Shown here piece by piece: positions 3,032-44,069 of a stretch of DNA of 52,570 bases. The position numbers and the translations under genes are program-made. The notes under the pieces are model-generated. The model was not told the origin of the DNA. It did not search any database and saw only the letters and a list, made by a program, of their open reading frames with translations. Positions within the stretch are counted from its first letter, which is position 1, and the number at the start of each line of letters is the position of its first letter. Origin of the DNA: a virus; IMG/VR virus record IMGVR_UViG_3300037508_000456, positions 1 through 52,570 of that record; one strand, written 5' to 3'.

Positions 3032-3059
3032 TTGACACAAGAACAAAAGTAGTTACAAT
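3032..3059 (+). promoter_or_regulatory. Sigma70-like promoter
   Basis: TTGACA at 3032-3037 and TACAAT at 3054-3059, 16-nt spacer. The -10 box ends 9 nt before the ATG at 3069. The transcript probably also carries the tmRNA gene that follows. Confidence 0.75.
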
Positions 3060-3068
3060 TAAACCAAC

Positions 3069-3365
3069 ATGGACAAGATTCCAAACGACATTCAAGAAGT
3101 TTTGTTAGACTATTTGATCTGTAAGATTCAAGAGATCAGCGAGAGAAAGTTTTCCTCTCCTTGGATCAAGGGAATTGAGTTTAAGGTTTGGGACGCAATC
3201 AACGATCAAGAAATTTCAAATCTTGTGAGTGCAGATGAAGCCGCATTTCTTCGAACTGCATCAAGGGCTACAAATTCTTGGATTACTTTGGATAGCGGAT
3301 TAAGCAGTGAAGGTGAAATCATCGTTATTCCTATTTCTGAATGGAAGAAAAAGTATCTTACTTAA
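3069..3365 (+). CDS. Hypothetical protein upstream of tmRNA
   Basis: A 98-residue soluble protein, not recognised, with a regular alternation of hydrophobic and charged residues. The promoter -10 box lies 9 nt upstream of the ATG and no Shine-Dalgarno sequence is visible, so the message is likely leaderless or has a leader of only 2-4 nt. The stop codon TAA at 3363-3365 is immediately followed by the first nucleotide of the tmRNA, so tmRNA 5' maturation must cut directly behind this gene if they share a transcript. Confidence 0.75.
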   Translation: MDKIPNDIQEVLLDYLICKIQEISERKFSSPWIKGIEFKVWDAINDQEISNLVSADEAAFLRTASRATNSWITLDSGLSSEGEIIVIPISEWKKKYLT

Positions 3366-3758
3366 GGGGGCGAACAGGTATCGACTAGACAAAACATACA
3401 AGAACAGCATGCAGGAGATGGTTACTAGGCTCCTTTAAAAATGTGACCAAACAACAACTGCCAATAACAAGAGCAGATTCGTTTACGCAAAGCCCGTTGC
3501 TCGTCAGCGTCGCCTTGCTCTCGCCGCCTAAAAATCGGTGAGAAAGAGTTAGATGATCCCGATAATCTAACTCTTAAAATCGGGACTCGCACCAGGGACA
3601 AACGGCTTCACTCACATGTGCCGTGTGCGTATGAGAAACAGGTGAGAACCTTGTGAGGAACCCTTAGCCTCACTTGGAATTCTAAAGGGGAAGCATGTAG
3701 GTAAAGTGGTTCTTGTAAGGATTGTATTAGCACGGGGGTTCGATTCCCCCCGCCTCCA
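3366..3758 (+). ncRNA. ssrA: tmRNA (SsrA), complete one-piece
   Basis: The tRNA-like ends are clear: 5' GGGGGCG pairs with 3' CGCCTCC and discriminator A at 3758, and the third pair is G-U, the alanine identity element. The 5' end carries the conserved CGAACAGGTATCGAC segment. The T arm GGGGG-TTCGATT-CCCCC is at 3734-3750. A tag frame starts at GCC (3460) and ends at TAA (3529-3531). Just after it, a 10-bp stem (3545-3554 with 3565-3574) has a loop (3557-3563) complementary to 3579-3585, a standard tmRNA pseudoknot. CCA is not encoded. tmRNA with SmpB rescues stalled ribosomes and tags the nascent chain for ClpXP. Phage copies are known but uncommon. Confidence 0.95.
3460..3531 (+). other. 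tmRNA proteolysis-tag reading frame
   Basis: With resume codon GCC at 3460, the tag is 23 residues: it begins ANNKSRFVYAKP and ends RRLALAA before TAA. The LAA end matches the usual ClpXP degron. The Arg-rich middle and the length (bacterial tags are usually 10-20 residues) are unusual. The resume codon is inferred from the frame of the LALAA-stop end and from the preceding A/C-rich single-stranded stretch. Confidence 0.8.
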
Positions 3759-3761
3759 TTC

Positions 3762-3779
3762 GGGGATCTAGCCATCCCC
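3762..3779 (+). other. Hairpin after tmRNA
   Basis: GGGGAT-CTAGCC-ATCCCC forms a 6-bp stem 3 nt after the tmRNA. There is no T run, so it is more likely a processing or stabilising element than a Rho-independent terminator. The Shine-Dalgarno sequence of the next gene lies about 15 nt downstream. Confidence 0.5.
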
Positions 3780-3805: not shown

Positions 3806-4015
3806 ATGGCTAAGAATGAGACTGGTTCGTGTCCGTTGTTTGGTGGTTGTGATAAGTTGTCTTGCCTTCTTTCGAAGGTCGGCATCAATCGTAGCCTTTT
3901 GATCACGCTTGGACTTCTTCCGTTCGCATGGAATGGAGTTGTCTTCCTTAAGAATTTCATTGTCAGCGTTTGGTCGCATCTTTCGACCGGCTTGACCACG
4001 GCATTCGGTGGATGA
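3806..4015 (+). CDS. Small membrane protein, hypothetical
   Basis: A 69-residue product with a strong AAAGGAG ribosome binding site before the ATG. The N-terminus holds three Cys residues (C9, C15, C20) in a short Gly-rich segment. Residues about 30-55 form a hydrophobic stretch that could be one or two membrane segments. It lies between the tmRNA and the second tRNA cluster, probably on the same transcript. Function unknown; the Cys pattern could bind metal or form disulfides, but that is speculation. Confidence 0.7.
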   Translation: MAKNETGSCPLFGGCDKLSCLLSKVGINRSLLITLGLLPFAWNGVVFLKNFIVSVWSHLSTGLTTAFGG

Positions 4016-4928: not shown

Positions 4929-4956
4929 TTGACATAGTTAGAGTTGCTGTTATAAT
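4929..4956 (+). promoter_or_regulatory. Sigma70-like promoter, leaderless type
   Basis: TTGACA at 4929-4934 and TATAAT at 4951-4956, 16-nt spacer. The -10 box ends 6 nt before the ATG at 4963. Confidence 0.85.
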
Positions 4957-4962
4957 TATCAC

Positions 4963-5505
4963 ATGAACATTTTTGTACTAGATTCTGTTCCACAAGTAGC
5001 CGCACGAAACCTTTGCGACAAACATGTTGTAAAGATGATTGTCGAGAGCGCACAGATGATGTCAACGGCACATCGTGTACTAGACGGAGAACCTACCACC
5101 CGTGTAACTAAGACAGGTAGGAATGTTAAGCATTGGGATCACAGTAATCAGATGTTGTGCCTTGCAACGATGATTCATCACCCATGCACACAGTGGGTAA
5201 TGAGTACAAATAAAAATTACCAATGGTTGTATCAGCATGCGTCAGCCATGCTTATGGAATACAATCTTCGGTATAACAAGATCCATGCCATGGAAAAGTT
5301 GATTTCTGTTCACCTCAGTAGTTGCCCTAAAAATATTCCACTTGGCGATCTCACACCCTTCGCACAGGCGATGCCTGAAAAGTATCGTTCTGAGGATGCG
5401 GTCACCGCCTATCGCAACTACTACCTCGGTGATAAGGCAAGATTTGCCAAGTGGAAGAATGTTCAAGCACCGAATTGGTGGGTAGGGGTAAATTTTGGGA
5501 AGTAA
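4963..5505 (+). CDS. Conserved T4-like phage protein (CDKHVVKM family)
   Basis: This 180-residue protein matches a family I recognise from many large phages by its landmarks: an N-terminal NIFVLD strand, then C-D-K-H-V-V-K-M-I-V-E-S-A-Q, an H-x-C-x-x-W-V segment (HHPCTQWV), and near the end QAMPEKYR, AYRNYY and a closing PNWW. Its function is unestablished; some annotations liken it to pyrimidine-dimer glycosylases, which I cannot confirm. The many conserved His, Cys and Asp residues suggest an enzyme or metal site. No Shine-Dalgarno sequence is present and the strong promoter predicts a leaderless message. Confidence 0.75.
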   Translation: MNIFVLDSVPQVAARNLCDKHVVKMIVESAQMMSTAHRVLDGEPTTRVTKTGRNVKHWDHSNQMLCLATMIHHPCTQWVMSTNKNYQWLYQHASAMLMEYNLRYNKIHAMEKLISVHLSSCPKNIPLGDLTPFAQAMPEKYRSEDAVTAYRNYYLGDKARFAKWKNVQAPNWWVGVNFGK

Positions 5506-40430: not shown

Positions 40431-43400
40431 ATGTTTAACTTCTCAGACCACAATACTCAGATTAATGAAGCAAAAAAAGATAGTGTAGTTTTTGCATTCG
40501 GTAGAATGAACCCACCAACTATCGGTCATAAGGTAGTTGTGGATAAAGTTCTAAGTGAAGCCGCAGCAAAGGGAGCAGATCATTTTATCTTTGTGTCTAA
40601 AACTCAGGACACCAAAAAAAATCCACTCAGTCAAAAGTCAAAGATCGACTATCTGAAGAAGTTGTTTCCAAAAGTTAAGTTTCCATTGGGAAAATCGACA
40701 AATCCATTTGACACAGTTTTATATCTTTGCGAACTAGGATACAAAAACATCTATGTGGTCACAGGAAGTGATCATGTTACAGAATATAACCGTATTAAAG
40801 AGTACAAGGGAAAAGTGGCAACAAACGACCCCAAAAAGAGGTCGTACTCATTCGATAATCTTGAGGTCATAGTTGCAGGCAAGGCAAGAGTTAAAGTTAC
40901 TCTTGATATGATAGATGATATGCTAAAGAAGGGTCAAGATGTTGATCCTATGTACATGTCGGCATCTCTTATGCGTGAAGCGGCATTTAAGGATCGATTT
41001 GATATATTCTCAATCGGCATTCCTGGAAATAAAACTCTTGCCAAGAGTTTGTGGAAAGATGTTCGTAAAGGGATGAGTTTGAAAGAAGATTTAGATCTTT
41101 TAGATGAGGCCACTAAAAAAGAGGATGTGACAATTATAGCCCTCACTTCATCAGAAAAAGATCTGAGTGATACTATAGAAAAAACTGAAGCGATATGCAA
41201 AAGACGTAAGATAGAATTCTATCCCATAAAAACAAGCAAGGCACAGGTAGAAATATCAAATGTCTCTTCGAAGAAAATTACTATAAAGAACTACGATGGA
41301 GAGGGAAAAGATGTAACCATTGTTCCAGAGAACACAGTTGCAATCGTTCGTGGTGGTGTAATGAACACCGAAATTGGTGTAGCCATAATGACGATTCTAC
41401 AGAACAACGGTGTGTTCATGGTAAACGAAAGAGCGGGTATGGAACTGTGCGCCAATAAGTTGGAAACAGCCATCGCACTCAAGAAACATGGTTTACCTCA
41501 CCCACGCACGGCTTTCGTCGCAAATGAAGAGAATATCGAATCGGCTGTCAAGGAAGTCGGCGGTAAGTTTCCGATCATCTGTAAGACCCTTACAGGCGCA
41601 GAAGGAATCGGTGTGTCCAAAATTGAGAGTATGGAAAGTCTCAAGTCTGTGCTACAGACATTATGGAAGTATGGTGCAGAGATCATCATTCAAGAGTTTC
41701 TTCCTGAATTCAAGAATGATGTTCGTAGCATAGTACTCAATGGGAAGATATTTGCATGTGCCAAAAGAGACAAAGCACCTAAAGACTTCCGAACCAATAT
41801 TGCCCGTGGCTCTAAGGGCGGATCACATCAATTGTCTGAAGAAGAGATTAAACTAGTTGAGCAAGCCGCACGGGTCAGTAAATGTTTCTATGTTGGTATA
41901 GACCATGTTATCAATGATGGTAAGCCATACATCATTGAAATGAACGCAAGTCCAGGTAGTGGAAATATCTATTATCGTTACTATGAGGATGGCGAAGGTA
42001 AAGATAATGTTAAAGGTGAAGAACTTGTAGAAGACTTTGTTGAATATATTCTCAACAAGGCACATTGGAAACTATTTTCGAATCTTGCTGTTCGTGAGAA
42101 TGTTAAGGTCGATGGCAATGAATATACCGCAAAGATCGATACTGGAAATAGCGGTTACAATATGATTCATGCCGACAACATAAAAGACAATGGTGACCAC
42201 ACCGTTTCATTTAAGTTAGCAGACGGTAAGAAGATTACGAAGAAAATTGTCAGCAGAATCAAAGTTAAGAGTGGCATCGGGGAGAAAGAAAGAATTGTGG
42301 TTTTCATGGACATTGAGTTCCATGGTAAGAGATATCCGAACATCAAATTCAGCCTTGGTGACAGAAACCATATGTCAACCAAGGTTCTTCTTGGACTGAG
42401 ATTCCTTGAGAAGACTGGTTATGTTGTTGATCCGGCAAACGCAATATATCCACAACCAGATGTCAAGAAAAAAACATCAGGTGAAGAGGAAGAAGAAGAG
42501 GAACTGTCTGAGAGTATCATTCCTAAAGGCAAAGCAAATATTGCGGGTGCCTTATTTAAATTGATGACCACCAAAAAAATGGTTGGGAAAATATTTGAAC
42601 TGTCCAAACTGTGGAAATCCAACTCAGTTGAGTTCAAGAAAAAACTACAGGATCTTGAGACAGAAATAGTGATTGACTACAATAAGTCTTTAGAAACGGG
42701 AGCAAAAACTGCTTTTTTTGTAGATAGATTCAAGTTACAGAGTATCATTGATAAGATTTTGTATAAAATGCTTGATGTCGCTGGTGTAGATTTACAGACA
42801 TATGTGGCTAAATTGTCTTCAGTATTTGGATCTCAATTAACCATGGGATATTCAATCGACGGAGAATCAATACAAGAAGCCGATATTACTAAGGGGAAAA
42901 AATTCTACACGAAGAGTGGAAAGATTAAGGCATCCCCAAAAGATAAAAAGACTGGATTGCCAAAGAAGTATGTCTCTGGATTATCGAAGCGAGAGGCTGA
43001 ACTTCGAAAGAAGAGACTTGCAAAGCGTAAGGATATGTCAGATGACGATCCGAAGACTTGGGAGTTTGTTAATCCTAGAGAAAAGAATATCAAGACTAAA
43101 CCTTCGAAATATACGACTGCTTTCAAGAAACTTGCCAAAAAAGGTAAACTGAAAACAATTAAGAACGACTATGAAGTCAATGAAGCAATCGCAGCAATAG
43201 AATCATTTGAAGAATTAGATTACAGAACTCGTATGGATAAAGCCATATCACTTGAACAGAAATCCCTTGAGAGGGGATTAAAGGATGCGGCATTGGTTTA
43301 CAGGTCTTTCATAGAATACGAGAAGAAAAAACAGTATGGAAACTATGAAATACAAACAAGTGTACAAGAAGATATCGAATATCTTTTGTATGAGGTAAGT

Positions 43401-44069
43401 CCACCATCTGGTCCTGCCCGGCGCTTTTCGAAAAAAGAGAGGATTAAAAAAGAATTCCAGAAGCGTTATGGTAAGCGTTGGAAAGAGATTTTCTATGCAA
43501 CCGCATGGAAGATGCATAAAGATTCATTTGATCCCAAAGTTAACACGATTGAATCTACAATTGATAAACTTTACATTTTGGTTGATTCTTGGAAGTGGAC
43601 TGCAAAAGATGATCGTGGTCCTCTGAGTATTGGAACAGACAATATCGTTAAGAAATACAAGAAAGACACTCCAGGGGAAAGATTAGGTGAAGATAAACGT
43701 GATAAAGATAAAGATGCTCTTTACGGGGATTGGAAAAAACTCATAAATATGTCAGGGAAAGAGATTCAATCTTTTCTCGACTCAGAAGAGGGTAAAGAAG
43801 CAGGACTTTCCCGCAAAGAAGCAGGCAAGGCAGGAGCAGATGGGGGTAAAATTACAAGTGGAAGAGATTCTGCCCGGGCCATTATTCGTATGCTTGATAC
43901 TCCCAAAGAGGACTGGACGGCAAATGATTGGAAATGGGCGAGTAAGCAAGTCAGTTTCATCAGTAGAATGCAAGGTGTGAAGGGCGGTATGAGGGATGAG
44001 AAAGGTCATCCAACCCGAAAACTTCTTGCTCTGAAAGTTTGGGGTCATAATCCGGAGAGGAAATCATGA
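40431..44069 (+). CDS. Multidomain enzyme: nucleotidylyltransferase, ATP-grasp, retropepsin-like and phage domains
   Basis: A 1212-residue fusion, the largest complete gene here. Residues about 15-200: nucleotidylyltransferase with FAFGRMNPPTIGHK (HxGH-type site) and S-A-S-L-M-R (ISSTxxR-type site), like NMN adenylyltransferases. Residues about 235-555: RimK-like ATP-grasp ligase with FPIICKTLTGAEGIGVSK, IIIQEF and YIIEMNASPG. Residues about 560-670: RimK-associated retropepsin-like protease domain with AKIDTGNSG and LGDRNHMSTKVLLG. Residues about 825-905: SGKIKASPKDKKTGLPKKYV, a DUF5872-like basic block. C-terminus about 1010-1212: YGKRWKEIFYATAWK and a Trp-rich module ending ALKVWGHN. No signal or membrane segments. 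Overlaps the next gene (ATGA). Confidence 0.85.
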   Translation: MFNFSDHNTQINEAKKDSVVFAFGRMNPPTIGHKVVVDKVLSEAAAKGADHFIFVSKTQDTKKNPLSQKSKIDYLKKLFPKVKFPLGKSTNPFDTVLYLCELGYKNIYVVTGSDHVTEYNRIKEYKGKVATNDPKKRSYSFDNLEVIVAGKARVKVTLDMIDDMLKKGQDVDPMYMSASLMREAAFKDRFDIFSIGIPGNKTLAKSLWKDVRKGMSLKEDLDLLDEATKKEDVTIIALTSSEKDLSDTIEKTEAICKRRKIEFYPIKTSKAQVEISNVSSKKITIKNYDGEGKDVTIVPENTVAIVRGGVMNTEIGVAIMTILQNNGVFMVNERAGMELCANKLETAIALKKHGLPHPRTAFVANEENIESAVKEVGGKFPIICKTLTGAEGIGVSKIESMESLKSVLQTLWKYGAEIIIQEFLPEFKNDVRSIVLNGKIFACAKRDKAPKDFRTNIARGSKGGSHQLSEEEIKLVEQAARVSKCFYVGIDHVINDGKPYIIEMNASPGSGNIYYRYYEDGEGKDNVKGEELVEDFVEYILNKAHWKLFSNLAVRENVKVDGNEYTAKIDTGNSGYNMIHADNIKDNGDHTVSFKLADGKKITKKIVSRIKVKSGIGEKERIVVFMDIEFHGKRYPNIKFSLGDRNHMSTKVLLGLRFLEKTGYVVDPANAIYPQPDVKKKTSGEEEEEEELSESIIPKGKANIAGALFKLMTTKKMVGKIFELSKLWKSNSVEFKKKLQDLETEIVIDYNKSLETGAKTAFFVDRFKLQSIIDKILYKMLDVAGVDLQTYVAKLSSVFGSQLTMGYSIDGESIQEADITKGKKFYTKSGKIKASPKDKKTGLPKKYVSGLSKREAELRKKRLAKRKDMSDDDPKTWEFVNPREKNIKTKPSKYTTAFKKLAKKGKLKTIKNDYEVNEAIAAIESFEELDYRTRMDKAISLEQKSLERGLKDAALVYRSFIEYEKKKQYGNYEIQTSVQEDIEYLLYEVSPPSGPARRFSKKERIKKEFQKRYGKRWKEIFYATAWKMHKDSFDPKVNTIESTIDKLYILVDSWKWTAKDDRGPLSIGTDNIVKKYKKDTPGERLGEDKRDKDKDALYGDWKKLINMSGKEIQSFLDSEEGKEAGLSRKEAGKAGADGGKITSGRDSARAIIRMLDTPKEDWTANDWKWASKQVSFISRMQGVKGGMRDEKGHPTRKLLALKVWGHNPERKS

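Follow-up and report, generated by a model that had tools for sequence, protein, structure and literature searches.

A complete, conserved one-piece tmRNA gene with a strongly basic tag in a T4-type phage lineage

The stretch of DNA analysed here (the window) is a 52,570-base IMG/VR virus record, a fragment of a T4-type phage, and it carries a complete one-piece tmRNA gene (ssrA) at positions 3366–3758 on the plus strand, the strand of all RNA elements given below. We consider it probable (roughly 0.78) that this gene encodes a functional tmRNA, expressed early, that would use the SmpB and alanyl-tRNA synthetase of the host in ordinary trans-translation. Support for function comes from a full-length model match, intact base pairs, a conserved tag end, promoters and a conserved CAACU (with A at -4) before the resume codon. 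The gene is one more phage tmRNA, of the one-piece kind and of an already known class.

We identified the gene using two tools. ARAGORN called it as a standard, unpermuted tmRNA, and a two-piece (permuted) arrangement was therefore rejected. The Rfam covariance model RF00023 matched the same interval over its full length (model positions 1–374; 97.9 bits, E 4.5e-37; gathering score, 47), a score near the low end of the 94–287 bits of above-cutoff matches in four phyla. The coordinates and the tag sequence of the original prediction were exact, and the elements that it had named (the G3–U70 pair, T arm, tag frame and pseudoknot) were all present. The 5' acceptor strand (3366–3372) contains G3 of the G3–U70 pair and pairs with 3751–3757 (GGGGGCG with CGCCUCC); the T arm, GGGGGTTCGATTCCCCC (3734–3750), was found by ARAGORN, Rfam and helix alignment alike. 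The 3' end of the RNA is the discriminator A and CCA is not encoded, the DNA reading TCCA and then TTC. ARAGORN and codon comparison place the tag reading frame at 3460–3531, from an alanine resume codon, GCC, to a final GCC UAA, and it encodes ANNKSRFVYAKPVARQRRLALAA, which ends in the hydrophobic degron LALAA.

Next, we wrote the secondary structure by hand as 13 helices and 80 pairs, including three H-type pseudoknots and a hairpin around the stop codon, and compared it with relatives by helix alignment. Pseudoknot PK1 (3414–3448) interleaves GGAG/CTCC with GGTTAC/GTGACC; a 7-bp hairpin (3520–3542) holds the UAA of the tag in its loop; PK2 (3545–3585) and PK4 (3653–3689) show compensated changes in relatives, from A-U to G-C and from G-C to A-U, respectively. 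Whereas tmRNAs usually have four pseudoknots, PK1, PK2 and PK4 could be written and were intact, and the PK3 position (3588–3629) was seen as a nested hairpin only.

To gather related IMG/VR contigs, we used the upstream 98-residue protein, RegA and a pattern for the tmRNA 5' end. The anatomy of the RNA and its conservation were directly apparent in these contigs: the tmRNA is present in five close relatives (L009, L010, L011, L092 and L100) and in the more distant L014 (RegA 70% identical), and the G3–U70 pair is kept in all of them, in L014 alongside a change of acceptor pair 5 from G-C to U-A. Every one of the 80 pairs is preserved in each of the four distinct sequences from close relatives, and compensated changes occur at two pairs; when partners were slid by 1–3 columns as a control, 37–49% remained paired. 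Because these close relatives are 97% alike and covariation is correspondingly small, the conservation of pairing by itself provides modest evidence for the structure. The claim of a complete, conserved phage tmRNA was borne out.

The window belongs to a T4-type phage because it encodes RegA, the gp43 polymerase, UvsX, a DnaB-type helicase (gp41), the gp45 clamp and the gp44 loader. Its best polymerase matches, to Synechococcus phages, reach 47% identity, so it has no close isolate. ARAGORN also found 14 tRNA genes in the window. Elsewhere in it we noted an S-adenosylmethionine lyase family protein (1485–2066; PF23780), a possible anti-restriction gene, and a 1,212-residue protein (40431–44069) with matches to cytidyltransferase families and to a family of ribosomal protein S6 glutaminyl transferases.

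Upstream of the tmRNA, also on the plus strand, lies a near-consensus sigma-70-type promoter, TTGACA-N16-TACAAT (3032–3059), that probably drives both the tmRNA and ORF98, a 98-residue open reading frame (3069–3365) that had no match in PHROG or Pfam and is 95–100% identical in L009–L011. The promoter sequence itself is plain: the window has six sites of the form TTGACA-N15-18-TAYAAT where 0.11 would be expected, and comparable sigma-70-type promoters were found upstream in six of the six loci examined. On this basis, the best reading is early expression by the host polymerase. As originally noted, ORF98 ends at the base before the tmRNA, its TAA abutting the RNA, and the order of promoter, ORF98 and tmRNA is kept in the five close relatives, each with a sigma-70-type promoter. 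Since the promoter is shared, ORF98 and the tmRNA are likely to be on one transcript. The tie to the upstream message that the original prediction proposed is kept in the close relatives but is not essential: in L014 the promoter ends 22 bases before the tmRNA with no ORF98-like gene between, and ORF98 is dispensable for the early expression proposed here.

Several features near the gene are worth recording. Strong sigma-70-type promoters at 2066–2101, 3032–3069 and 4929–4963 have a -10 box ending 6–9 bases before an ATG, so the predicted mRNAs would have no leader or almost none, a layout that may hint at the identity of the host or at a phage strategy. Directly 3' of the tmRNA, a short hairpin (GGGGAT...ATCCCC; 3762–3779) without a T run is kept in L092 and L100 and is a possible processing signal. 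Further downstream, a small open reading frame of 69 residues (MAKNETGSCPLFGGCDKLSCLL...; 3806–4015) has a ribosome-binding site and is conserved in L100.

Phage tmRNA genes had been described in the original prediction as known but rare, in agreement with a 2022 survey (PMC9004378) in which such genes turned up in 402 of 18,146 phage genomes and 133 unique structures were distinguished. The present gene shares with bacterial one-piece tmRNA (ssrA, RF00023) an acceptor with G3–U70, the T arm, a long P2, pseudoknots, a resume codon and a tag ending in ALAA; it differs in being phage-borne, in its unencoded CCA, in its 23-residue tag at +6 and in its low-end model score. Mycobacteriophages Bxz1 and Wildcat and Bacillus phage G (PMC4131195) likewise carry a tmRNA that presumably works with host SmpB, but searches of 50,697 phage records returned no match to the present tmRNA (blastn) or to its tag (tblastn). 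The tmRNAs of Melnitz and pelagimyophages (PMC9004378) are also found in T4-like phages behind an early promoter. The Melnitz tmRNA is two-piece and permuted and has a glutamine riboswitch (PMC9004378), whereas the present gene is one-piece and an Rfam search found no riboswitch.

We then examined the tag. In the window and in L009, L010 and L011 it is the same 23-residue peptide of net charge +6; L092 and L100 encode ANKKRRFVYAKPAARQRRLALAA, and L014 encodes AKFNKKQSRRLALAA, in which the positive charge is kept. The final seven residues, RRLALAA, are shared by the window and L014 even though silent substitutions separate four of the seven codons, a pattern suggestive of selection at the peptide level. 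The remainder of the tag varies more freely: the close relatives differ by three amino-acid substitutions (N to K, S to R and V to A) and by no more than one silent change, and the charge goes up from +6 to +8. We compared the tags of this lineage (+6 to +8) with two sets of distinct tags: 69 from viral contigs sampled by pattern, and 93 from bacterial loci, most of which belong to four phyla. The way in which each set was sampled introduces bias, and the sets include some artefactual calls, which makes the ranks approximate. No viral tag had a net charge of +5 or more, and the bacterial tags averaged -1.2 (sd 1.4) with one at +5 and none at +6, giving a maximum of +5 among the 162 other tags. 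That single +5 tag, AKSKRIAKNDVRFQKLALAA, had been added through a targeted search for long basic tags, which used a pattern for long tags with a basic residue before a terminal LALAA. Of the 11 bacterial loci that this pattern picked out, the majority had tags that were short or unrelated, and AKSKRIAKNDVRFQKLALAA came nearest in character. These figures strongly support the description of the phage tag as more basic than usual, and that of a longer tag holds against the bacterial set but not the viral one, in which 7 of 69 tags have 23 or more residues. With ranks approximate, the length is unremarkable for a viral tag and the charge is the outlier.

The +5 tag belongs to a tmRNA of a Gammaproteobacteria MAG (L110:7306–7708) and has 20 residues. 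When the phage tmRNA was compared by blastn with 299 genomes of the phylum of this MAG, only the 26–27-nt T-arm and acceptor end matched, and no host was found there.

The conserved basic tag, a direct observation, might send tagged peptides to a different fate: they could be taken by another protease, be left undelivered by the host adaptor, or bind ribosomes or nucleic acid. The outlying charge and its retention in the diverged L014 tag speak for such an effect, yet the usual ALAA degron forms its C terminus, and the basicity of the tag may reflect the host tmRNA or drift, given the long +5 tag of the MAG. The C-terminal ALAA is an ordinary ClpX degron, and the suggestion that tagged peptides are steered elsewhere found no support. 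We regard this explanation as unlikely, and give similarly little credence to the proposal that the lineage evolved its strongly basic tag to alter the fate of tagged peptides, by escaping host adaptor control or reaching another target, with ribosome rescue serving the virus.

For ordinary trans-translation, we infer from sequence a course of transcription, processing, charging, tagging and degradation that would benefit the phage. A host-type sigma-70 promoter would give an early transcript shared with ORF98, from which RNase P would cut the tmRNA 5' end, the host adding CCA. Host alanyl-tRNA synthetase would charge the phage tmRNA, and host SmpB would carry it into ribosomes that had stalled on broken mRNAs, as might happen when host messages are being degraded. 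The ribosome would switch to the phage tag frame and be released at UAA, and the fragment, now bearing the 23-residue basic tag ending in LALAA, would pass to ClpXP or a similar protease. Host SmpB is the assumed partner because none is encoded in the 52.6-kb fragment.

The absence of SmpB from the fragment would also suit a tmRNA that competes with or titrates the host tmRNA–SmpB system, its main effect being to blunt host trans-translation. Mycobacteriophage DS6A has a tmRNA gene with only the tRNA-like domain, and a molecule resembling it is a strong tmRNA inhibitor (PMC4131195). Here, by contrast, the whole mRNA-like part, tag frame and stop codon are intact, with protein-level conservation of the tag end, and we think such a role improbable. 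Integration at ssrA is common (PMC12656738), but we find it scarcely credible that this is a decaying gene captured from a host, or what is left of an integration site, with no role: the gene is intact, has compensated changes and a linked promoter, and is conserved across several phage contigs from a T4-type lineage.

Phage tmRNAs have been little studied. With a clear early-type promoter and a tag that is both outlying and conserved, peptides tagged by this phage tmRNA are probably distinguishable from those tagged by the host and, given a host, the targets of a phage tmRNA during infection would become directly testable.
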